Shown here piece after piece: positions 10,086-58,787 of a stretch of DNA of 64,000 nucleotides. Under the pieces are notes generated by a model. The model was not told the origin of the DNA. It worked only from the letters and a program-made list of their open reading frames with translations, and made no database searches. A program made the position numbers and the translations under genes. Every line of letters starts with the position of its first letter. The stretch's first letter is position 1. Location: contig NZ_CP104900.1 of NCBI RefSeq assembly GCF_025449215.1, positions 3,534,001 through 3,598,000 on the forward strand. The letters run 5' to 3'. The stretch comes from Shewanella seohaensis. GTDB lineage: Bacteria > Pseudomonadota > Gammaproteobacteria > Enterobacterales > Shewanellaceae.

Positions 10086-12331
10086 TCACACCTTTAACTG
10101 TTTATTAACTGGCAGATCGCGGATCCTAAGGCCTGTTGCGGCAAATATCGCATTGGTCAGGCTTGGTGCCACCGGCGGCACGCCGGGCTCACCCACACCC
10201 GCAGGCGGTGCATCCGAGTCGATAATGATGATCTCCATCTCTGGCACTTGGGGTAAACGTAGCAAGGGATAATCATGGAAGTTAGACTGCATCACCTTCC
10301 CCTCTTGGTAACTGATCTCCCCATTAGCGCCAAGCTTAAACCAAATACTATCGCGCCTTCGGTCTGCGCTTTCACCCTGTCGGGGTTAACCACAGTGCCC
10401 GCATCAATCGCAGCAATGGCATTCAGCACCTTAAGCTGTTTGTCCTCGCCGACTTCTACCCGCATCGCCACCGCCACCACACTCACAAAGCTGCGGTGCA
10501 CGGCAAAGCCCCAACCTTGATTCTTACCCGCTTTAGGCGCCTTGACTTGGGCTTGTTCAACTGCCTCAATCACCTTGAGGTAACGGCCGACATCGACGGG
10601 ATGACGGTTTAAGTCTTCACCATAGTTGCCATATTTAAAGCCTTGGTTCTCAAAGGCCTCTCGCCTTGCTTGGCCCAGTAAGCTGCGCCACATATCGGGG
10701 CAAGATAACTTGGCTTTATGGGCCATTTCATCGACAAAACTGCCCACGCCAAACCCGTGTTGAATGTTACATACCGAGCGCATCCAACCGATACGATTGT
10801 GAGCGCTGGCTTTAACGGCCTCGTAGCGTAAATTTGCGAGGGCAAAGGGCACATCGACAAAGCCTAAGTCCAGCTCTCCACCGGATGGATACTCAACGCC
10901 CTCGGCAAAGGTGGAGCTGATCGACGGGAAGCCCGTACGCGCGAGCAGCGCCGTTGGTTTGTTATTGGCATCGAGCAAGGCCTGATAACACTGGGCACTG
11001 ATGGCGTGATAATAACCGTTTTGGATTTCATCCTCACGGCTCCAACTCACCTTCACTGGCCGTTTAAATTGCTTGGAGAGTAGCGCCGCCTCCACACTGA
11101 AATCTGGTTTGGACTTGCGCCCAAAGCCGCCGCCCAGTAACGTCACATTCACTTTCACCGCATCCTCGGCGATACCTAAGGCTGCGGCCACATTTTGCTG
11201 GGTACTCTGCGGTGTTTGTGTCGATGCCCAAATTTCACAGCCCTTCTCGGTCACATTGGCGGTTGCCACAGGCGGCTCGATGGAGGAATGGATAAGGTAA
11301 GGCACGGTATAAATCGCCTTAAGGGTATCGTCCTTCGGCCAGGCTTTGACCTCATCACCAACTTGACGTACCACCTTGCCAGGGGCTTGTACCTTGTCCA
11401 CCAGCTCTTGCAGGTAGGTTTTAGAATCGTGGCTGCTGTTGGCAGACTCAGTCCAGCTCACTTGCAAGGCTTTACGCCCCTGCAGCGCGCTCCAAGTATT
11501 TGTCGCCACCACAGCTACGCCGCCTAGGGCTTGAAAAGCGGGAGCGCCCTTGGACGTTGGCAAACGGTACACATCGACCACACCAGCTACTTTGCGCGCC
11601 GCACTATCGTCAAGACTTGCGACATCGCTCCCCAATACGGGTGGGCGCATAATGCTGGCATAAAGCATGTTATCCACTTGAATATCATAGCCATAGACAG
11701 CCTTACCCGTGAGCATGGCCTGCATATCGACTATCTGACGCGATGCACCAATTTGCTTGAAATCCTTAACCGCCTTTAACCGCAGCGAATCGGCTGCGGG
11801 CAGTGGTAATCCCGCCGCATCGAGGGCTAATTCGCCAAAGCGCGCAGCACGGCCAGATTTAGCATGCAGCACTTGATGATCTTTAGCCTGCACTTCACTC
11901 ACGGGGACTTTCCAGCGAGCTGCTGCGGCTTGTTCAAGCATGGTTCGAGCCATCGCGCCCATCTCACGCATGCGATCATAGTTTTCGCGGATACTGCGGC
12001 TACCATCGGTATTTTGGCTGGCGTAACGTTTATCTGCGAGTCCTTGAATAGGCACAATTTTATCCCAATCAGCCTCCAGTTCTTCGGCCAAGATTTGTAA
12101 AATCCCCGTGCGGATCCCCTGGCCCATTTCGGAGCGGTGGCAGGTCAAATAAACCTTGTCATCCTCACCGATGGCGATAAACAGATTGAGCCGCGCCTGC
12201 TGATCCTGCGCCAATGCCATTGGACTCCAACTGAGACCACTTGCCCCGAGTGCGAGGCCGCCCCCGACGGCGCCGAAGAGTTTTAACACATCGCGGCGAC
12301 TGATATTTTCAACTGCGGTGAATGTACTCAT
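10086..12331 (-). pseudogene. Molybdopterin-binding hydroxylase large subunit (IorB-like), frameshifted
   Basis: Large Mo subunit of a xanthine-oxidase-family enzyme resembling isoquinoline 1-oxidoreductase beta. The N-terminus has a twin-arginine signal (SRRDVLKLFG, then GGGLALGA), so it is periplasmic. Motifs seen: HRSEMGQGIRTGILQILAEEL, TVPYLIHSSIEPPVATA, LLGGGFGRKSKPDF, and the tail QSNFHDYPLLR..PEMEI...GVGEPGVPPVAPSLTNAIFAATG. The frame breaks at the C4 run 10319-10322: one more G on the coding strand restores GEISYQEGKVMQSNFHDY. Start ATG 12331 is chosen over an upstream ATG because AGGAGG lies eight bases before it; it begins one base after the 2Fe-2S gene. A sequencing indel is the likeliest cause. 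Natural substrate unknown (aldehyde or N-heterocycle). Confidence 0.88.
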
Positions 12332-15656: not shown

Positions 15657-15835
15657 AGCTTCAATCTCGTGTTATCCATAGCCGATAGATTACGCTAAGA
15701 GGCTTATCATGGCTCAAATTTTTACAATAAAAATTGATCTTAACCAAAGGCTAACCAAATAATCCCAACTTGCGACAACAGGGCTTTTGTATACAATCTG
15801 CCCTAAACAACAAGCCCTACTCTTAAGGTTAATTG

Positions 15836-17124
15836 ATGAAACCCGATATGATGCTCGCCGGTGTCCTCGCCAAAAAACACTCATTCAACCTGCCACTCAA
15901 TTATCAACAGCCGATTGGTGAACAGATCAGCGTGTTCGCGCGGGAACTCTGCGCCATTGAAAATAAAGATAAAAAACTGCCATATATCGTCTTTTTCAGG
16001 GAGGTCCCGGCTTTGCCGCCATGCGCCCCGCTAATAATAGCGGTTGGATCCGCCGCGCACTCAAAGAGTTTAGAGTATTATTGCTCGACCAACGGGGCAC
16101 TGGGCTTTCTAGCCCGATAAATTACCAAAGCCTCGGTCACTTAACGCCTGAACAACAGGTCGAATATTTAAGCCATTTTAGGGCCGACAATATCGTCCGC
16201 GATGCCGAATCAATTCGCGCCCAGCTCTGCCCCGCCGACAAGTGGGCGATTCTAGGTCAAAGTTTTGGTGGTTTCTGCGTGCTGCATTATTTAAGCGCCG
16301 CCCCTCAGGGTGTGAGTGAAGCTTATATCACTGGCGGCATTCCTTCCCTCACACGCAGCAGTGATGAAGTCTATCAGGCCACCTATCAGCGCGTACTCGC
16401 TAAAAATAAGGACTTCTTCCAGCGCTTCCACGATGCGCAGCATCTAGTGACACGCCTCGCCAAACATATACTCGAGCACCCAGTGCATTTAGCCACGGGC
16501 GAGCGCCTCACGGTTGAAATGCTGCAACTGCTCGGCATTAACTTGGGCATGGAGCAAGGCCCTGAGTCGGTTTACTATTTGCTTGAACAGGCGCTGGTGC
16601 ACTCGCCCCAAGGTGATTATGTCAATCCGCTGTTTTTAAATCATTTCTGTCAATTGCTCGACTATAACACCAACCCGATTTTCGCCCTGTTACACGAAGC
16701 CATCTACTGCCAACACAGTGCGTCACAGTGGTCTGCCCATAGGGTGCGTGAACAGTATCCGGCCTTTAACTATCAAGTCGGTAAGCCTTTCCTGTTTACT
16801 GGCGAGATGATTTACCCTTGGATGTTTGAGCAATTTAGCCATTTAGCCCCACTCCAAGCCGCGGCCAATCTCCTTGCCCATAAAATGGACTGGCCGGCGT
16901 TATACAATCTCGAGCAACTCAGCCAAAACCGCGTCCCAGTTGCGGCCGCGATTTACAGCGAAGATATGTATGTCGAGATGGACTACAGCCTCGAAACTGC
17001 CAAACAGGTAGCTCACCTAAAGTATTGGTTAACCTCGGAATATGAGCACAATGGCATTCGAATGGATGGCGAGCGGATCTTAGATAAACTCATCAGTCTC
17101 AACCGCGGTGACAGCTTAAGATAA
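15836..17124 (+). pseudogene. Proline iminopeptidase-like alpha/beta hydrolase, frameshifted
   Basis: Serine hydrolase of the S33 prolyl aminopeptidase family. Motifs: LPYIVFFQGGPGFAAMRP (oxyanion GGPG, restored), LLLDQRGTGLSS, GQSFGGFCVLHYLS (nucleophile Ser in GxSxGG) and, near the C-terminus, YSEDMYVEMDYS and EYEHNGIRMDG supplying the acid and His. The frame breaks at the T5 run 15992-15996; a sixth T restores FFQGGPGF. The ATG at 15836 has AAGG about 9 bases upstream. Full length would be about 430 residues, in the usual range. Likely an indel in the sequence rather than decay, since all catalytic motifs survive. Confidence 0.85.
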
Positions 17125-17344: not shown

Positions 17345-17728
17345 TTAACGTTTCATCTGAGGATAAGTAAATTCATGGCATTGATTGCAATAGACTTTAC
17401 TTTCTTTGTGTTCCTGATGGCAGTAAGTACAAGGCAAATCTGTACCATAGTGCAGACTGTCATGGGGATTTGGCTCAACCGAATGGCCCGCATCCGCTAG
17501 GCGCTCAGTCAGCTTAGCCACCTCCTCGGGTGAACCGTGGCAGCTACTGCAAGTCGCTGCATCGGGAACGATTTTACGTTTTGCATCACCGTGGCATGCC
17601 GCGCAATCGACTTTACCATCGGCTCCTGTCATCACCTCTTTATGGTAGTCCTTGATATTCAATGCATTAGCGGCCATTGGCGTTGCCAGCATGACACCGA
17701 GTAATAGAATAAATACGGGTTTTAACAT
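17345..17728 (-). CDS. Periplasmic small tetraheme cytochrome c (electron donor subunit)
   Basis: 127 residues with a Sec signal peptide (VFILLLGVMLATPMAANA) and four CxxCH heme sites: CAACH, CSSCH, CTYCH, CNQCH. It resembles the heme domain of the Shewanella flavocytochrome c3 fumarate reductase, here encoded apart from the flavin subunit. The same split arrangement is known for the Geobacter methacrylate reductase. It is the last gene of an operon with a HAL-family lyase and a Tat-exported flavoprotein, so it probably carries electrons from the quinol-linked pool (CymA in Shewanella) to that flavoprotein. All four heme motifs are intact. Confidence 0.93.
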   Translation of the reverse strand: MLKPVFILLLGVMLATPMAANALNIKDYHKEVMTGADGKVDCAACHGDAKRKIVPDAATCSSCHGSPEEVAKLTERLADAGHSVEPNPHDSLHYGTDLPCTYCHQEHKESKVYCNQCHEFTYPQMKR

Positions 17729-17769
17729 CAGAGTCTTCCTAGGCGGGGCATAGTGCCCCGCATCGTAGA

Positions 17770-19407
17770 TTAATAGTTTGCAATAAAGTCAGTTGACGCT
17801 TGGATATCGGGTGTAAACGGACGGTCCTTGGCAACAAAAGGCACTTTTTCACGGTAGGCCTTGTACATGGCTTGTGTTGCCTTACCCAGTTGTAGTTCAG
17901 GGTGAGCTTGCTTACGTAAATCAATCGCTTGAGTTGAGTGCAGCAGTTCTAAACCGTAGATGACTTGGGTGTTATCCACGATTTGGATCAGGTTATCCGA
18001 CGCCAACTTAAGATTCGTGAAGGTATCTTCAATCCCACCGGCGATAGAAATCCCATCGAAGGATACTGGCGTGGCTAACTGCTTGTTACGCACTTGCATA
18101 TCCACAAAGGCCTTTTGAATCGCACCGAAGGCATGGCCTTGGTTTTCTGGCGCACTCAGGAAACGCGTCAGCTTAGTAAAGTGATCATCGGACAGATGAA
18201 TAGTGCGCATCACACTGTTATGGGACACGTGGGTCAGGGCCACACTCAGGTTTTGCACTGCGAGTGCCACAGGTAGCGGCTCAAAGTTAGTGGTAGGGAA
18301 CACACCGCCCTGCCCTTCAACCAAATATTTAGCCACTTGTGGGAACTCGGCATATTGGTTCGACGCGCCCACAATCACGGCTGGGTTATCGTCCGAATGG
18401 TTGATTTGGATATTGATCACTTCATCTAATGAAGCTAGGGCCTGCTCGGCGCCTGCAAAGGTGTAAGCCGTAGTTCTAAAGCTTAACGGATCCTGTAATG
18501 GACGCTCATCGTTTAGCTGCCATAAATAGCTACCATCGAGCTGCTTGAGAATGTCACTGGTGGCCGATTTAATGTAAGGGAACGGACGGATGTCGTTGGT
18601 TTGCGGCAAGAATGGCGCCACGTTACCGTTTAATCCCTCAAGGCTTAAGCCAAAGACAGTGGGCGATACGGACAACAATTGCTTCGCTTCACGGTAACCT
18701 TGCATGGCATACGCGACGGCAAAGGCATTGTTAGACAGAATCGATAGCGCATCTTTCCCCATAGGTGCCAATGGGGTGATCCCCGCATCGGCCATCGCCT
18801 CTTTACTGCTCACACGCTGACCTTTGTAGAACACTTCCCATTCACCAATCATGGCTAAACCGACATGGGATGACAGCAGAATATCCGCCTCACCGACTGT
18901 GCCTTTAGCTGGGATCACAGGGGTCAGCCCCTGATTTAAATAGGCTTCATAAAGCTCGGCAACCACAGGTTGCACACCGGTTTGTCCGGCTAACATGGTA
19001 TTTAACCGCACGGCTAAGGCTAGACGAGTGAGTCGAATCGGCGCAGCTTCACCGACACCGGCACTGTGGGCACGCAGAGTGCTGAGGTTAAAGCTTCGAG
19101 AGGCATCGAGCACCGCATCACTCAGCTTACCGTTGGCATCGAACAGCTTGTGGTCTTTATTTAGCCCAACCCCCACGGTTAAGCCATACACAGGTTTGCC
19201 CAGACGCGCCGCTTCCATCAGTAGCGCGTTTGCTTTCACGAGTTGGGTCTTGGCCTGCGGCGCAATCTTCACTTTAGCGCCATCGGCAATCGCCCAGGCT
19301 TGGTCTTGGGTTAAATGTTTACCGTCGAGCACTACTTGCTCCATCGCGAACGCACTGCCTGAAAGTAGACTCAAGGTGAGTGAGGCCATCAACATGGATT
19401 TATTCAT
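17770..19407 (-). CDS. Exported HAL/PAL-superfamily lyase lacking the MIO triad
   Basis: 545 residues with a clear Sec signal (MNKSMLMASLTLSLLSGSAFA), so it acts in the periplasm, unusual for a family that is normally cytoplasmic. The fold signature of histidine/aromatic ammonia-lyases is present: VYGLTVGVG near residue 74, GTVG at 169-172, LQDPLSFRTT, SDDNPAV, TTNFEP and GIEDTF. However, the Ala-Ser-Gly that cyclises to the MIO electrophile is replaced by Glu-Ala-Asp (173-175), so classical ammonia elimination is not expected. The known MIO-less relative is ergothionase, which eliminates trimethylamine from ergothioneine. The start is set at 19407 because GGAG lies seven bases upstream and it begins the signal peptide. 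Many databases would name it histidine ammonia-lyase; I doubt that. Confidence 0.88.
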   Translation of the reverse strand: MNKSMLMASLTLSLLSGSAFAMEQVVLDGKHLTQDQAWAIADGAKVKIAPQAKTQLVKANALLMEAARLGKPVYGLTVGVGLNKDHKLFDANGKLSDAVLDASRSFNLSTLRAHSAGVGEAAPIRLTRLALAVRLNTMLAGQTGVQPVVAELYEAYLNQGLTPVIPAKGTVGEADILLSSHVGLAMIGEWEVFYKGQRVSSKEAMADAGITPLAPMGKDALSILSNNAFAVAYAMQGYREAKQLLSVSPTVFGLSLEGLNGNVAPFLPQTNDIRPFPYIKSATSDILKQLDGSYLWQLNDERPLQDPLSFRTTAYTFAGAEQALASLDEVINIQINHSDDNPAVIVGASNQYAEFPQVAKYLVEGQGGVFPTTNFEPLPVALAVQNLSVALTHVSHNSVMRTIHLSDDHFTKLTRFLSAPENQGHAFGAIQKAFVDMQVRNKQLATPVSFDGISIAGGIEDTFTNLKLASDNLIQIVDNTQVIYGLELLHSTQAIDLRKQAHPELQLGKATQAMYKAYREKVPFVAKDRPFTPDIQASTDFIANY

Positions 19408-19442
19408 TATCATCTCCAACATTTTGTTATATTTAATAAAAT

Positions 19443-20995
19443 CTAAGCTTGCTTGAGCGTCACAGCGTTCGCTGCGGCGCAGTTACGGCCGGCATTACGC
19501 CCAGTGACTACCCCTTCGGCCACGGCACAGGCTCCTAAGCGGCTGGCACCATGGATACCGCCCGTGGCTTCGCCTGCGGCATATAACCCGGGGATGGCTT
19601 TATTGCTGACCAAATGCAGCACTTCGGATTGGGTATTCACCTTCACGCCACCCATGCAGTAATGCACCTTCGGCCACATGCGCACCGCATACCAAGGCCC
19701 TTTGTCCAGCACTATTGCCTCCTGCATGGGGCGGTCGAACTCTTTATCAACGCCCGTCTTCACGGCTTCATTCCAACGCGCGACCTGCGCCTTTAATGCC
19801 TTGGCGGGCATGCCGTAAATAGCGGCTAGTTCGTCTAAGGTCTCAGCCTTGCTGATGACCTTGTATTTCAGGCCCCAATCTAAAGTCTGTGCCTTGCTGG
19901 CACCGGCGGCATTAGTAAAACCAATGGGATAGACAGGCTGCCCCTGCTCATCCCGTCTGGTCATTATGGCGTCGGCGCGCGCCTTGCGGTCGGCCAATTC
20001 GTTGAAGAAACGCTCGCCGGTACGCACATCCACAACAATTCCGTGGGGATAGGTGGCGATAGTGTTGAACTGAGAGGCGGTGCCGAAGCCCTTCTCATCC
20101 GGTGATGCCCAGGGGCCGAGCTGGATCTGGTCCAGATGAATAGGGTTAGCGCCGATAAGCATCATCTGCTTGAGGGCCTCAGAGGTGGCACCTGCATGGT
20201 TGGTTGAATCTAAATCACTATTTAACTCAGGTAATTGCATCATGCGGTATTCAATATCACGACCAAAACCACCGGTCGCCATAATCACGCCACGGCGCGC
20301 GCCGATACGACGTATTTTACCCGTGCGCTCTTTGGGAAAATAAAAACCTTCGCGAACTTCGACACCGATCACCCGTCCGGCCTCATCTTGTACAAAGCCT
20401 TCGAGCTTGGTCTGATTTTTCATGATGACGCCCTTATCCCGGGCGGCTTTAATTAGGGGACGAATAATGCCAGCGCCTGAACTTTCAACCGTTTGCAACA
20501 CTCGTTGTACCGAGTGGCCGCCAAAGTGTTGCACAAAAGGCTTCCAGTTCACGCCGTAATCAATCAACCATTGGCAGGATTCTGCAGTGCCGTTACACAC
20601 CAGTTTAAGCATTTCCACATCGTTCATGCCGCGACCTGCCCGCAGCATGTCAGCCACCATGGCATCGACCGAGTCTTTAATCCCGGCTTGTTTCTGTAGC
20701 GCAGAACCAGCTACCGCCATGGCGCCGCCATTGATGGTAGAGTTACCACCAAACACGGGCATCTTATCGATAACCATCACGCTCACGCCGGCTTCTCTGG
20801 CCTGCAACGCCGCAGACATGCCAGCAAAACCGCTGCCAACCACGAGCACATCTACGATTTCATCGAAGTTGATAGGCGCAGAGTCACAGCTGGCAGTAGT
20901 GGGCAGTGCAATACTCGCCCCGAGTCCCGCGGCCATGACCATGCCCCCTTTAATAACTGGCGGCGCCCCGAATTAATACCTTGGGTTTTACTCAT
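19443..20995 (-). pseudogene. Tat-exported FAD-dependent acrylate/fumarate-reductase family flavoprotein, frameshifted at its signal peptide
   Basis: Flavoprotein subunit related to fumarate, urocanate and methacrylate reductases. FAD site DVLVVGSGFAGMSAALQAREAG...IDKMPVFGGNSTINGG; active-site region FFNELADRKARAD (Arg proton donor), VHYCMGGV (His) and GGIHGASRLGACAVAEG (substrate Arg). It has neither a heme domain nor an FMN-binding domain; electrons come from the separate tetraheme cytochrome. The true N-terminus is a twin-arginine signal beginning at ATG 20995 (GRRQLLKG) with AAGGAAA before it. The frame is lost at the C5 run 20944-20948; one extra G restores LLKGGMVMAAGLGAS. A downstream ATG at 20942 gives a protein without the signal. 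Substrate probably an acrylate side-chain product of the neighbouring lyase. Confidence 0.88.
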
Positions 20996-21038
20996 GCTGA
21001 TTTCCTTCAATAATCATTGGAACTTGTCAGCGTGAAAG

Positions 21039-21054
21039 TGCAGATGCTGTGCCA
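21039..21054 (-). promoter_or_regulatory. Sigma-54 (-24/-12) promoter of the flavoprotein-lyase-cytochrome operon
   Basis: On the minus strand TGGCACAGCATCTGCA matches TGGCACRNNNNTTGCW with one mismatch and exact GG-N10-GC spacing. It lies 44 bases before the flavoprotein ATG. A sigma-54 activator gene is divergent and adjacent. Confidence 0.8.
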
Positions 21055-21103
21055 AGCACCTAAAAAGAGGTATTTATGTGGGGAACTTTGATTGCAGGCA
21101 CAA

Positions 21104-21146
21104 AATCACGAAATATAAAGATCTACAATCACGATACTTAGTGATT
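21104..21146. promoter_or_regulatory. Probable upstream activator binding sites (two)
   Basis: AATCACGATACTTAGTGATT at 21127-21146 is an imperfect palindrome, and AATCACGAAATATAAAGATC at 21104-21123 keeps one half-site. Both resemble the perfect palindrome at 24088-24117 in front of the porin. Located 50-110 bases upstream of the sigma-54 promoter and just before the regulator start, they suit an enhancer-binding protein that may also autoregulate. Confidence 0.65.
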
Positions 21147-21160
21147 AACTTGAAATATCA

Positions 21161-22687
21161 ATGGAAAAACACTTCTATTACGAATCAACGCTAAGACTCT
21201 GTAGCAGTCTGCAACTCGAAAAATCTTTGCACAGTTACTTCGGGTTTATTCGGGATGAATTGCCTATAGATGGGCTATTTGTGAATATTTTTCGCAAACA
21301 ATTTAATGATATACAGTTTATCGCCCATGTTGATGATTCCCATTGCTGCACCTTGGATAAACGCATCCAAATTCCTCTGAAGATGGCGCAATTGCTAGAG
21401 GATCCCGAGCGGCCAAAGGTGCGAATTGTTAATGACATAGAGCATGATCCTGTCACCTCTTTAGTCGCGCCTCAGGTCATTAAGGATATTCGTTCGGTAA
21501 TTATTTTGCGGATGTCGATTGAGAATACCCACCTTGGGATAGTCGGCTTTTATGCCAAAACGACTGGAGTGTTTAGGCCCCGTCATGCTGACTTGATTGC
21601 CCCACATATGCAAAACCTCGCGCTCATCACGGCGCTGAATTTAAGGGATCGCAACTTACTCAAAGAGAACGAAGCGCTCTCTAAACAAAACGTCAGTCTA
21701 CGCCGCACCTTAGATGTTCAAAATGGCGTGGTTGGCGCTAATTCTGGCTTGAAACAGGTGATGCAGCAGGTGCAATCCATCGCCAAGATTAACACCACAG
21801 TGTTAATGCTTGGGGAAACTGGCTGCGGCAAGGAGGTTATCGCCAACGCCATTCACGAACTGTCGGAGCGCTCGGGTAAGCCTTTTATCAAGGTAAACTG
21901 TGGCGCTATTCCAGATACTTTGATTGACTCCGAGCTCTTTGGTTATGAAAAAGGTGCGTTTACTGGCGCTGATTCGCGCAAAATTGGCTACTTCGAGCAG
22001 GCCAACGGCGGCACCATTTTCTTAGATGAAATTGGGGAATTACCGCTTTCGGCCCAAGTTCGACTACTTAGAGTACTGCAAAATAGTTGTATCACCCGCG
22101 TTGGCGGCCACGATGCGGTGCAGCTCGATATTCGTATAGTGGCCGCAACCCACAGAAACCTTCAAGCCATGGTACACAGAGAAGAGTTTCGCGAAGATCT
22201 CTGGTATCGGCTGGCGATTTTCCCCATCGAGATCCCATCACTCAGACAAAGACGCACGGACATTCCTCTGTTAGTGCAACATTTTGTCGAGCAGTTGAGT
22301 GCCAAGTTCAATTTGCCACAGCTACCAAGAATCGCCCCAGAACAACTGAATATTCTCAACCAATATGATTGGCCAGGGAATGTGCGCGAACTCATTAATG
22401 TGCTCGAGCGCGCTATCATTCAGCACCCTGCGGGTCCGCTGGATTTTAGTTTTCTGGCGCCCAAAAGCCTCGAAGCCGTTAAAACCCCGTCCAATCAAAC
22501 CGTGATTATCGATCCAAGTCATGCCAGCGATAAGCTGGTGCCACTGGAGGTGATGACCAAAAAATACATCAGCCATGCCTTAAGGATCACGGGCGGTAAA
22601 CTCTATGGCCCAGGCGGCGCGGCCGAATTGCTGGATATCAATGCCAATACCCTGCGCAGTAAAATGAAGAAGTTAGGGATTGTGTAA
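21161..22687 (+). CDS. Sigma-54-dependent transcriptional activator (GAF/AAA+/HTH)
   Basis: Enhancer-binding protein, 508 residues. The N-terminal 170 residues look like a GAF-type sensory domain. The AAA+ domain (about 195-415) has Walker A GETGCGKE, the sigma-54 contact loop GAFTGA, Walker B IFLDEIGEL, and arginine-finger region REEFREDLWYRL. A C-terminal Fis-type helix-turn-helix follows (GGAAELLDINANTLRSKMKKLGI). No response-regulator receiver is present, so activity is likely set by a small ligand or by-product of the pathway. It is divergent from the flavoprotein operon and convergent with the porin gene. Nearby -24/-12 promoters and shared palindromes strongly suggest these two units are its targets. 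Confidence 0.93.
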   Translation: MEKHFYYESTLRLCSSLQLEKSLHSYFGFIRDELPIDGLFVNIFRKQFNDIQFIAHVDDSHCCTLDKRIQIPLKMAQLLEDPERPKVRIVNDIEHDPVTSLVAPQVIKDIRSVIILRMSIENTHLGIVGFYAKTTGVFRPRHADLIAPHMQNLALITALNLRDRNLLKENEALSKQNVSLRRTLDVQNGVVGANSGLKQVMQQVQSIAKINTTVLMLGETGCGKEVIANAIHELSERSGKPFIKVNCGAIPDTLIDSELFGYEKGAFTGADSRKIGYFEQANGGTIFLDEIGELPLSAQVRLLRVLQNSCITRVGGHDAVQLDIRIVAATHRNLQAMVHREEFREDLWYRLAIFPIEIPSLRQRRTDIPLLVQHFVEQLSAKFNLPQLPRIAPEQLNILNQYDWPGNVRELINVLERAIIQHPAGPLDFSFLAPKSLEAVKTPSNQTVIIDPSHASDKLVPLEVMTKKYISHALRITGGKLYGPGGAAELLDINANTLRSKMKKLGIV

Positions 22688-22717
22688 TGCATTGATAAGA
22701 AATGGATAGTCATGAAA

Positions 22718-22739
22718 AAGGCCACAATACTGTGGCCTT
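22718..22739. terminator. Bidirectional terminator between regulator and porin
   Basis: AAGGCCACA / TGTGGCCTT arms around ATAC between the convergent regulator and porin genes. Confidence 0.7.
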
Positions 22740-22776
22740 TGATGAATGCACTTTTTAGCGCACTCTCTCGTCAGAC

Positions 22777-23946
22777 TTAGAAGAAATAACGAATACCAAC
22801 GGCATAGTTATTATCTTGCAGATCTTCGTAGGCTTTATCGTCCATATCGCTGAAATCGATTTTGGCTTCGGCATACATGATGGTGTCGCGGCTATAGCGA
22901 TAATGCAGGCCTAGCACGGCAAACTGACGCGTCCATTTGCCTTGGATAGCGGTGTTTTCATCGGTGTCCAAATCCTGATAAGTCAGCAATAGGCTAGGTA
23001 CGAATCCGTTATCATAGTGGTAAGCGACAATAAATTCGGCGCCAGTTGAGTCGTAAAGCTCCCCACCTACCAACTCGTTTTGCTCACTCTTATGGGCGTT
23101 AAAACCCACATACAGGCCGTCGGCATCACGACCTGGCGCATATTGATAGAAGCTGCCGTATTGGGCACCGATACCGATGATTTGGTTGGTATTATCGACT
23201 TCTTTGCCCGCAAGATTGCCAGTGAAGTCACCACGGTTAAAGCCCGCTAACACCTTAAATTTATCGGTGAAATAGTAAGTCGCACTCGCGCCATAGCTAG
23301 GGTCGAAGCTCAGCTCCGAACCATCGTTTAAGGCGTTACCTAAATTATCATAGAGCGCCACATCACTATTTTGCTTAGAAGCGTATTGCACCGCGATATG
23401 CAGATTACCAAAGGTATTGCGGTATTGTAGCGCCGCATCGGCACGACCCGCTCCGGTGAGGCCGCCATCACCGAAGGTATAAGCACCAACAGACCAACCC
23501 GTAAAGGCATTCAGCACGTCAGTGGTGTAAGCAACATCGTAATAAGCCCCCCACTGCTTACCAAAGGTGAGCGAGCCCCATTTGTCGTGCGACATGCCGA
23601 CATAACCTAAACGGTTAAAGAGGAAATCTGAGGTTTTTGAAGCCGATAACTGGCCACCACCTTGGCCTTCGGTATAGATAAGGCCATCGTCACTGGTGAC
23701 CATGTTAATGCCCCATTCTGTATGGGCAAAAGAGCGCCAGCCGTTTTTCTCTTGGCGGTCGAAACGGAATCCTACGCGGGAAAAGTTATCAATTACCGAA
23801 GTTTCGTGGCCATCATTTAACGCCGCAAAGCCTAGCCAGCCCATCATATTGACGCTATTGGTTTGATCGTTATACAGCTCAACCGCCTGAGTGGTACCAG
23901 TCAATAGTACCGCGGGGATCATCACTGCAAGCAATTTCTTTTTCAT
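22777..23946 (-). CDS. Outer-membrane porin of the module
   Basis: 389-residue beta-barrel porin with a Sec signal (MKKKLLAVMIPAVLLTGTTQA) and a C-terminal Phe (NNYAVGIRYFF) for Bam recognition. The sequence alternates aromatic and Gly residues (GFRFDRQEKNGWRSFAHTEWGIN, LGYVGMSHDKWGSLTFGKQWGAYYD), typical of gram-negative trimeric porins. The start at 23946 has AAGGTG upstream; a longer frame runs to 24039 but would include the promoter. A sigma-54 promoter and a perfect palindrome lie upstream, so it is likely co-regulated with the lyase operon and may admit the substrate. Confidence 0.9.
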   Translation of the reverse strand: MKKKLLAVMIPAVLLTGTTQAVELYNDQTNSVNMMGWLGFAALNDGHETSVIDNFSRVGFRFDRQEKNGWRSFAHTEWGINMVTSDDGLIYTEGQGGGQLSASKTSDFLFNRLGYVGMSHDKWGSLTFGKQWGAYYDVAYTTDVLNAFTGWSVGAYTFGDGGLTGAGRADAALQYRNTFGNLHIAVQYASKQNSDVALYDNLGNALNDGSELSFDPSYGASATYYFTDKFKVLAGFNRGDFTGNLAGKEVDNTNQIIGIGAQYGSFYQYAPGRDADGLYVGFNAHKSEQNELVGGELYDSTGAEFIVAYHYDNGFVPSLLLTYQDLDTDENTAIQGKWTRQFAVLGLHYRYSRDTIMYAEAKIDFSDMDDKAYEDLQDNNYAVGIRYFF

Positions 23947-24027
23947 ATCATCTACACCTTTTAATTCAGCTAAACCATATATAATCATATGATTTAATTG
24001 GCTTATTATATTCTCCAGCCAACACAC

Positions 24028-24043
24028 AGCAGTTTGCATGCCA
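24028..24043 (-). promoter_or_regulatory. Sigma-54 promoter of the porin gene
   Basis: TGGCATGCAAACTGCT on the minus strand keeps the invariant GG-N10-GC with two consensus mismatches. It lies 82 bases upstream of the porin ATG. Confidence 0.65.
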
Positions 24044-24087
24044 CGGCGCAGAAAATCTGAATTTCAGGGTGTTTTTTAGAAGTAGAT

Positions 24088-24117
24088 CCGCCAATCACGA
24101 AATATCGTGATTGGCGG
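24088..24117. promoter_or_regulatory. Perfect 13-bp-arm palindrome upstream of the porin
   Basis: CCGCCAATCACGA pairs with TCGTGATTGGCGG across AATA. The inner AATCACGAAATATCGTGATT matches the sites upstream of the regulator. It sits about 45 bases upstream of the -24 box, a plausible enhancer position. A rho-independent terminator is less likely because there is no T tail. Confidence 0.7.
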
Positions 24118-26802: not shown

Positions 26803-27164
26803 GCACCGGTTTAAGCCTTGTAGGGATACCCACACTTATATCTGTTTAGGTCAAATAAAGAGTTCTAACTCCACGCACCTTGTCTCACCTTTCTCCTACA
26901 TCCCGACTGTCAAACGCAGCTCGAAACCTAGCGAATTAACGCACCGCTAAATCCCCTATCAGTAATGCCACCAAATAAAGAACGTTAAATTATCAATTAT
27001 TTAACAACTTTAGCTATGAAGCGGCTTAAAAAGTCGTTATGTTGAAGCTCTTGGACGCCCCCACGCGTCTTAACCTTAGGCCAAATTGGCCGTTTAGTAC
27101 CCAAACTTACAAGCAAATATCTTAAAAACTCTGCAAAAACAACAGAATATTGGAGTTGAATTAT
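26803..27164. other. Intergenic region upstream of the symporter
   Basis: 362 bases with no gene. AT-rich from 26990, presumably the symporter promoter and leader. No riboswitch or terminator could be recognised. Confidence 0.45.
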
Positions 27165-28648
27165 ATGAATGAGATTGTTAATGCGGTCAACAATATCGTT
27201 TGGAGCCCTGCGCTCGTTTATCTTTGCCTCGGTGTAGGACTCTTTTTCTCCCTGCGCTCACGTTTCTTACAGTTACGCCATTTACCCGAAATGATCCGTT
27301 TAATGTTTGATGGTAAGAGCACTGATGCCGGTGTGTCTTCCTTCCAAGCCTTAGCCATGACCTTAGCGGGTCGTGTGGGAACCGGTAACATTGCCGGTGT
27401 CGCCACTGCGATTACCTTTGGCGGTCCAGGTGCATTGTTTTGGATGTGGATGGTGGCGTTTCTTGGCGCCAGCTCCGCATTCGTCGAATCCACCTTAGGC
27501 CAAGTCTACAAAGAAAAAATCAACGGTGAGTACCGCGGCGGCCCCGCCTTTTACATTGAAAAAGGCTTAGGCATGAAGTGGTACGCTTGGACATTTGCTA
27601 TTGCGACCATTTTTGCCTGCGGGATTTTACTGCCAGGCGTGCAAGCCAACTCGATTGGTTCGAGCCTAAAAACCGCCTTCGATATCGACCCTAACGTCAC
27701 CGCCGCTATCCTCGCTATGCTGTTAGGTTTTATTATCTTTGGTGGCGTGAAACGTATTGCCCACTTCGCCAGTACCGTAGTGCCCTTTATGGCACTGGGT
27801 TATATCATCGTCGCCTGCGTGATTATTGCCCTTAATATTGGTCAGCTGCCCGATATTATTATGTTGATCCTAAAAAGCGCCTTCGGACTCGATGCGGGCT
27901 TTGGTGCGATTTTAGGTCTTGCGATTATGTGGGGGTAAAACGCGGTATTTACTCCAACGAAGCGGGTCAAGGTACTGGGCCACACGCCTCCTCGGCCGCA
28001 GCGGTAAGTCACCCTGCAAAACAAGGTTTAGTGCAAGCATTCTCTGTGTACATTGACACTCTTTTTGTGTGCTCTGCCACTGGTTTTATGTTGCTCATCA
28101 CTGGACTTTACAATGTGCAAGGGCCTGAAGGTGTCGCACTCTACACTGGCATTGCCGGCGTTGCAGCGGGCCCTGGTTATGTACAAACCGCGATGGAAAG
28201 CATGATGCCAGGCTTTGGTAATATGTTCGTCGCCGTCGCGTTGTTCTTCTTCGCCTTCACCACCATTGTGGCCTACTACTATATTGCCGAGACCAACATC
28301 GCCTATATCAACCGTAAGGTAAATCGTCCTTGGCTGACCGTAGTACTGAAAGTGGTGCTGATGGCGTCAACTGTCTACGGCACAGTGAAAACTGCCGATT
28401 TGGCATGGGGCATGGGTGATATTGGCGTAGGTTTAATGGCTTGGTTAAACATTATCGCCATTATTCTGCTGCAACGTATAGCCTTTACTTGCCTTAAGGA
28501 TTATGAGTCGCAACAAAAACAAGGGGTTGAGCCGTTATTCGATCCTGAAAAGCTCGGTATTCCCCATGCAGACTATTGGGTTGAGCGCAAAAATGCGCAG
28601 GATGAACTAGCGCAGAGTCAATCCAGCGAAACTCCCAAAATTTCCTAA
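27165..28648 (+). pseudogene. AGCS family sodium:alanine/glycine symporter, frameshifted
   Basis: Inner-membrane Na+-coupled amino-acid carrier of the AGCS family with about 10-11 transmembrane helices. Family motifs: GVGLFFSLRSRFLQLRHLPEM near the start, GRVGTGNIAGVATAI, then GGPGALFWMWMVAFLGASSAFVE, and after the break GVKRGIYSNEAGQGTGPHASSAA, the family signature. The frame is lost at the G5 run 27931-27935 (WG-stop); a sixth G joins IMWG to VKRGIYSNEAG exactly. GGAG nine bases before the ATG at 27165 supports that start. Both halves are well conserved, so an assembly indel is most likely. Confidence 0.9.
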
Positions 28649-58717: not shown

Positions 58718-58733
58718 TGGCACAACATCTGCA
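58718..58733 (+). promoter_or_regulatory. Sigma-54 promoter of the repeat-protein gene
   Basis: TGGCACAACATCTGCA matches the -24/-12 consensus with one mismatch and exact GG-N10-GC spacing, 55 bases before the start codon. It differs from the lyase operon promoter at a single base. Confidence 0.78.
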
Positions 58734-58787
58734 TTGAGGTGTTCAGTGTCAAAAAATAAAACATTATCAACTACCCTGAGAGATAAA

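Follow-up and report, generated by a model that had tools for sequence, protein, structure and literature searches.

A putative periplasmic ergothioneine-respiration module in Shewanella

Why would a bacterium export a lyase of the histidine ammonia-lyase (HAL) fold and encode it between a flavoprotein reductase and a cytochrome? The question is raised by a gene block in a stretch of 64,000 nucleotides of Shewanella seohaensis, positions 3534001-3598000 of a single-contig 4.75 Mb Shewanella genome (hereafter, the window). An earlier note on this DNA had described five genes as one block, and all five are present there: an exported lyase, a flavoprotein, a tetraheme cytochrome c, an outer-membrane porin and a sigma-54-dependent activator. 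The note had proposed that the lyase makes an electron acceptor in the periplasm that the flavoprotein respires. Comparing the block with related loci and with published work on Shewanella oneidensis, we conclude that it is probably a periplasmic ergothioneine-respiration module. The features are as follows, in window coordinates; L, G and P numbers below are our own labels.

17345..17728, minus strand: tetraheme periplasmic cytochrome c, 127 amino acids, four CxxCH motifs (PF14537; SO3056 counterpart by gene order)
17770..19422, minus strand: exported HAL-fold lyase of predicted ergothionase type, 550 amino acids, lacking the 4-methylideneimidazole-5-one (MIO) group (SO3057 counterpart by gene order)
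19443..20942, minus strand: main frame of the flavin adenine dinucleotide (FAD) flavoprotein, fumarate/urocanate-reductase family, proposed thiourocanate reductase (TIGR01813; SO3058 counterpart by gene order)
20943..20995, minus strand: twin-arginine signal segment of the flavoprotein, out of frame in the assembly, in frame in relatives
21039..21054, minus strand: sigma-54-like -24/-12 promoter of the flavoprotein-lyase-cytochrome operon, TGGCACAGCATCTGCA
21127..21146, no strand: palindrome AATCACTAAGTATCGTGATT, a proposed binding site of the activator; the genome has one further exact copy
21161..22687, plus strand: divergent sigma-54-dependent activator, 508 amino acids (domain or family model matches)
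22777..24039, minus strand: outer-membrane porin, likely start codon at 23946 (domain or family model matches)
24028..24043, minus strand: sigma-54-like promoter of the porin, TGGCATGCAAACTGCT
24093..24112, no strand: the other exact genome copy of the palindrome, AATCACGATATTTCGTGATT, located upstream of the porin

The lyase resembles ergothionase more than HAL. Its best PDB match was the ergothionase of Treponema denticola (6s7j, 297.3 bits), against 158.5 bits for the histidine ammonia-lyase 1gkj, and it scored 246.6 bits against the hutH model, below the cutoff of 539.15. Over aligned columns it is identical to ergothionase at 192 of 487 positions and to L002, a HAL-family protein of the same genome, at 137 of 500. 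We aligned 87 rows, including three HAL-family rows, the T. denticola ergothionase, the window lyase twice and one fragment. The Ala-Ser-Gly (ASG) triad that forms MIO was present in all three HAL-family rows and absent from 83/83 scorable non-HAL rows, the fragment being left out since it does not contain the triad region; in place of the triad, the lyase family has a segment one residue shorter, mostly Glu-Ala-Asp. The NKD of the motif GVGxNKD is common to the T. denticola ergothionase and 83 of the 84 non-HAL rows (the fragment is the exception). A histidine that lines the imidazole pocket in HAL is kept in 85 of the 86 rows having a residue at that position. In trees, the lyases and the T. 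denticola ergothionase split from the HAL-family rows with support of 100/100; the program flagged a long branch for the T. denticola row. By sequence, the lyase is of the ergothionase class, and it should free trimethylamine, leaving thiourocanate in the periplasm. The exported HAL fold described in the earlier note thus stands, but as an MIO-less ergothionase type rather than an ammonia-lyase. Sharing the MIO-less HAL-type fold and GVGxNKD with the T. denticola ergothionase, the window lyase differs from known ergothionases in its signal sequence and its gene-order coupling to a reductase. The T. denticola enzyme reportedly has four essential catalytic residues, and ergothionase is also known from Burkholderia HME13.

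The earlier note knew of no assigned substrate for such clusters, but there is one: ergothioneine histidase activity was assigned to SO3057 of S. oneidensis by Baran et al. (2013), according to the review PMC4197876. A block in an MR-1-like genome (locus L089, genome G101) has the order cytochrome-lyase-flavoprotein, and its lyase is 96% identical to that of the window. In-vitro assays are reportedly also part of the work by Baran and colleagues. In the literature on S. oneidensis MR-1, SO3056 is termed a tetraheme cytochrome c (PMC3769277), SO3057 is a histidase family protein, and SO3058 is a flavocytochrome c flavin subunit among the listed substrates of twin-arginine translocation (Tat) (PMC3623810). 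Because these names give cytochrome, histidase and flavin subunit in sequence, the L089 block matches SO3056-SO3057-SO3058 in gene order.

We also noted MIO-less lyases of the same family in Escherichia. P0061 and P0088 (E. coli) and P0046 (E. marmotae), in which Ala-Ala-Asp replaces Glu-Ala-Asp, are candidates for the E. coli ergothionase reported in 1962, for which no gene is identified according to PMC13405746. A protein search of a plasmid collection with P0088 matched 358 records, all below 60% identity. A megablast search of 20,395 E. coli records with the lyase gene of L051 found nothing; L051 belongs to another clade and is uninformative on P0061. Related lyases are present on Sinorhizobium plasmids, and those of L067, L069, L070, L071, L073 and L077-L081 (rhizobia, Burkholderia) have signal-like starts and no nearby reductase. 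The lyase of Shewanella marina (L068, 8001-9655) is broken into two overlapping frames.

We drew 146 genomes of the family and searched them for the lyase (E 1e-100) and for the flavoprotein with L004 as query (E 1e-120), scoring ten candidates per genome for the latter. Lyase matches occurred in 54 genomes, 52 of them at 62% identity or more; G117 and G118 held only distant ones (40-42%). Flavoprotein matches were found in 103 genomes, but identity was 68% or higher in just 53, and the next match reached at most 48%. Both genes were present in 52 genomes, the flavoprotein alone in one (G002), the lyase alone in none and neither in 93, uncorrected for relatedness. In 52/52 cases the two genes shared contig and strand, with gaps of 27-2406 bp (median 52). 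Since every lyase genome has the flavoprotein close by on the same strand, their grouping is far beyond chance and the block is a dedicated module. The earlier note's expectation of similar clusters in other Shewanella was borne out by this genome-context search.

In G002 (L125, 5644-10025) we observed a flavoprotein, a tetraheme cytochrome, a small predicted exported protein and a sigma-54 activator with no lyase, as expected if free thiourocanate can also be used.

Linkage extends beyond the family. Scanning one genome per species, we obtained 157 confirmed lyase relatives and kept the nearest 80 as 78 loci. Among these 78 best related lyases, 53 have a reductase without the flavin mononucleotide (FMN) domain (the Tat type) within 1.5 kb, and 51 of those 53 loci also have a four-heme cytochrome within 2.5 kb. 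Another four of the 78 have a UrdA-type reductase within 1.5 kb, giving 57/78 with any reductase. At L043 and L046 the open frame has a long 5' extension that precedes the twin arginines, and at L074 the flavoprotein is in two pieces.

The flavoprotein belongs to the flavocytochrome c family (TIGR01813, 484.1 bits, cutoff 285.45). Its nearest solved relative by sequence is the urocanate reductase UrdA (PDB 6t85), and a profile led by L004 agrees. Counterparts of Arg411, His520 and Arg560 of UrdA are kept. Glu177, Tyr373 and Asp388, which bind or select urocanate (PMC7921117), are replaced by Ala, Gly and Gln, the Gln standing beside an insertion and being weakly aligned. Lyase-linked Tat flavoproteins, from those of Shewanella to those of Sutterella, carry the motif IQLGPW[AS]SPDE[KR]GFG almost without variation. 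A domain scan found no PF04205 FMN-binding domain in the window frame or in the full-length relative L004. Judged by these residues, the flavoprotein keeps the catalytic residues of UrdA and FccA but has its own substrate pocket. It shares the catalytic arginines and histidine with UrdA and differs from it in the pocket, in having no FMN-binding domain, in its separate tetraheme partner and in a Tat signal where UrdA has a Sec signal (PMC4427408). Plain UrdA and plain FccA were considered and rejected on the absent FMN domain, the absence of fused hemes and the different pocket.

The earlier note had compared the split flavoprotein and tetraheme design with methacrylate reductase of Geobacter, and the separate tetraheme cytochrome gene bears this out. 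Mrd/Mcc of Geobacter sulfurreducens AM-1 likewise combines a flavoprotein and a separate tetraheme cytochrome c in one operon. It is termed a two-protein redox system, and its authors likened it to DddY dimethylsulfoniopropionate lyases beside cytochrome genes, not to ergothionase (PMC4427408).

Modules of comparable make-up are found in Ferrimonas, Enterobacterales, Sutterellaceae and a Campylobacter metagenome-assembled genome (MAG). In Enterobacterales the lyase and flavoprotein are followed by four-heme and seven-heme cytochromes. We saw the seven-heme protein in L042, L043, L048-L051, L053 and L054; that of L051, the only one scanned, is fused to a cytochrome b561 domain. In the Campylobacter MAG (L074) a porin gene lies inside the block, with four-heme and NapC/NirT cytochromes after it, and in Parasutterella (L045) a porin follows the lyase. 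We read the b561 and NapC proteins as a putative quinol-side entry, which Shewanella would supply from elsewhere. The window genome has three NapC/NirT-family matches, none inside the block. The earlier note had called the module complete; with no quinol oxidoreductase within it, the block is not complete in itself.

The lyase family is paired with more than one kind of reductase. We examined fifteen more stretches of the family, comprising the MR-1-like L089 block and fourteen with more distant lyases (L100 is apparently the same place as L063). Beside distant lyases, L090, L094-L098 and L101 carry a Tat-type reductase and a tetraheme cytochrome, and L092, L093, L102 and L103 a UrdA-type reductase; in L091 and L099 a UrdA-type gene lies 4-5 kb from the lyase, and L100 has none. 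The three UrdA-type proteins scanned (L058, L091, L092) contain FMN- and FAD-binding domains. Glu177, Tyr373, Asp388 and Phe391 are intact in the UrdA-type partners of L057, L058, L059, L064, L091, L092, L093, L099, L102 and L103. The strongest indication of a coupling between elimination and reduction is that one lyase family goes with two kinds of reductase and two kinds of electron-transfer module. Such reductases are known, in general terms, to exchange flavin and cytochrome modules (PMC8238504).

Three side observations follow. The lyases paired with UrdA-type reductases, in Sutterellaceae (L057, L058, L059, L064) and in the Shewanella family (L092, L093, L102, L103), may take part in hercynine-to-urocanate respiration. 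The MR-1-like genome G101 has a second module of lyase (about 37% identical), tetraheme cytochrome and Tat flavoprotein (L090, 7768-11428), which should be SO3299-SO3301, the tags being assigned by position. Finally, the locus L036, titled Marinobacter nauticus, is very like Ferrimonas balearica L035 and probably comes from a misnamed or mixed assembly.

We further investigated how the block might be regulated. Within 250 upstream bases, sigma-54-like sites scoring at least 9/11 were found upstream of the flavoprotein in 29 of 30 Shewanella loci (none in L022) and upstream of 19 of 21 related porin genes, each count being reached in at most 5/100 shuffles. Over the whole window, 3.3 matches to the sigma-54 consensus with one mismatch were expected and 7 were observed. 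Exact copies of the palindrome AATCAC-N8-GTGATT are found at only two places in the 4.75 Mb, one upstream of the operon and one upstream of the porin, against about 0.3 expected by composition-free arithmetic; operon and porin thus share predicted regulatory sites. With zero or one mismatch the palindrome occurs upstream of 10/30 Shewanella flavoprotein genes and 0/9 from Ferrimonas and kin, and an exact copy lies upstream of 4/21 porin genes. As it is kept at only some flavoprotein and porin genes, the palindrome would seem to drift quickly or to be partly due to chance.

Elsewhere in the window, at 58718-58733, lies a sigma-54-like site (TGGCACAACATCTGCA) near-identical to the flavoprotein promoter, just upstream of an open reading frame at 58734.

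We propose that ergothioneine, an antioxidant of mushrooms, would enter through the porin and that the exported MIO-less lyase, an ergothionase, would eliminate trimethylamine in the periplasm, leaving thiourocanate. The Tat-exported flavoprotein would then reduce the side-chain double bond of thiourocanate with electrons from the tetraheme cytochrome, which in turn probably receives them from quinol through a CymA-type quinol dehydrogenase whose gene lies elsewhere. The divergent sigma-54 activator would bind the palindrome upstream of operon and porin and turn both on upon its signal, possibly by sensing substrate or product. For the lyase step there is published work on the S. oneidensis counterpart; from comparisons we infer the rest, namely the use of thiourocanate by the reductase, the route of the electrons, the inducer and growth on this pathway. 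Periplasmic elimination feeding a reductase, the idea of the earlier note, is the best-fitting reading because of the co-inheritance, the 57/78 linkage, the shared regulatory sites and the quinol-side cytochromes found elsewhere.

Published physiology can be set beside this scheme. Deletion of SO3056 left growth above 75% of wild type on dimethyl sulfoxide, fumarate, trimethylamine N-oxide, nitrate, ferric citrate, MnO2 and O2 (PMC3769277), as expected for a part that serves some other acceptor. In a gut cross-feeding pair, Clostridium symbiosum converts ergothioneine to thiourocanate, which then reportedly supports anaerobic growth and ATP synthesis of Bacteroides xylanisolvens (Zhou 2025, via PMC13405746). 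There the steps are split between two species, whereas the window block would carry out both in the periplasm.

Could another substrate or role account for the block? The database annotation implies a classical histidine ammonia-lyase relocated to the periplasm, turning histidine into urocanate. Membership of the aromatic-lyase family PF00221 and the source records, which name the lyase histidine or aromatic ammonia-lyase, speak for it, but we rejected it on the missing MIO triad and the score far below the hutH cutoff. As the genome already has two other HAL-family genes with ASG (L002, L003), we hold this reading to be extremely improbable. Another N-trimethylated imidazole amino acid, above all hercynine, could be the natural substrate, with the lyase making urocanate and the flavoprotein being a second type of urocanate reductase. 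Related lyases, 42-52% identical, do adjoin UrdA-type reductases that keep Glu177, Tyr373, Asp388 and Phe391 (eight rows), and among the four matches in the window genome at E 1e-20 there is no UrdA, the best being FccA-like. We nevertheless consider hercynine an unlikely substrate, given the Ala, Gly and (weakly aligned) Gln at the urocanate-selecting positions, the separate urocanate reductase of S. oneidensis, SO_4620 (PMC4427408), and the assignment of SO3057 activity to ergothioneine (PMC4197876). Still less probable, in our judgement, is that the lyase serves nitrogen scavenging or ergothioneine removal while the flavoprotein acts as reductase of some unrelated acceptor, for example methacrylate, acrylate or fumarate. 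This would suit the lyases of Burkholderia, rhizobia and others that have no reductase in the examined stretch, and the split design is indeed that of methacrylate reductase (PMC4427408), but it sits poorly with the strict gene pairing in 52/52 genomes and with a lyase family that pairs with two different reductase types.

A further alternative concerns this strain only. The lyase and the cytochrome start with Sec-type signal sequences (read by eye), and the earlier note had described the flavoprotein as Tat-exported. Its twin-arginine segment does exist (ATG at 20995) and is in frame in relatives wherever the stretch extends that far, but in this assembly its reading frame differs by one from the remaining 499 codons. 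If the break of one base between segment and main frame were real, the flavoprotein would stay cytoplasmic and the module would be broken in this strain. Compared with all three relatives L110, L112 and L004, however, the window is missing single bases near 10323, 15997, 17314, 20946 and 26510. As these five deficits fall within about 18 kb, some inside genes and some intergenic, and the rest of the gene is an open frame, the break is probably an assembly indel and not biology, and we give a truly broken module little credence.

Two other window genes are also split over two frames, a prolyl-iminopeptidase-like gene (15833-17124) and, by eye, an AGCS-transporter-like gene (27150-28648), and both point to assembly indels.

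Several points nevertheless count against an ergothioneine-respiration module. We know of no assay of the flavoprotein, whose Tat signal is out of frame in the present assembly. As the lyase family is found paired with reductases of two pocket types, the substrate cannot be named from the pocket alone. The module is uncommon in the order: at E 1e-80 the lyase was found in 8 of 394 genomes, seven of them within the family, and in the eighth, G318, a 45% identical lyase lies beside a transporter-like gene with no reductase in the examined stretch. No reductase lies within 1.5 kb of 21 of the 78 best related lyases, mostly from Burkholderia, rhizobia, actinobacteria and Enterococcus (L038, counted here, has its flavoprotein 2.4 kb off behind a second lyase), which suggests that the lyase can serve other ends. 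The palindrome pattern was picked after viewing the two sites, and with at most one mismatch it is not enriched genome-wide (22 sites against 36 for the control). Finally, work on the growth defect that tat mutants show under aerobic conditions found a moderately lower growth rate on deletion of SO3058 (PMC3623810), for which the proposed scheme does not account.

Ergothionase and respiratory acrylate-type reductases are already known in kind. As far as we have seen, what is new is their coupling in one periplasmic module, with its regulon, its spread and the predicted substrate of the flavoprotein; we found no published assignment of thiourocanate reductase or ergothioneine respiration in Shewanella in the literature searched, which comprised mostly papers outside subscription. 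Ergothionase has been reported as restricted to few genera, with divergent homologues possibly missed (PMC13405746).

More broadly, MIO-less trimethylamine lyases and periplasmic reductases might form a portable eliminate-and-respire family for betaine-type imidazole amino acids, with members in marine Shewanella and Ferrimonas, Enterobacterales, gut Sutterellaceae and Campylobacter. The Tat-flavoprotein form would respire ergothioneine within one cell, with its own quinol-side cytochrome where needed, and the UrdA-paired paralogues would turn hercynine or a similar betaine into urocanate, feeding gut imidazole propionate formation. We put this forward tentatively, at somewhat less than an even chance. 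For Shewanella, the proposed module would assign a definite function to three genes that mostly go by the names "histidase", "flavocytochrome c flavin subunit" and "tetraheme cytochrome c", and ergothioneine becomes a candidate substrate for respiration in an organism amenable to genetics. Whole modules are also present in Sutterella, Parasutterella, Hafnia and Citrobacter, genera found in the gut, where they would bear on the debated loss of ergothioneine and formation of trimethylamine.

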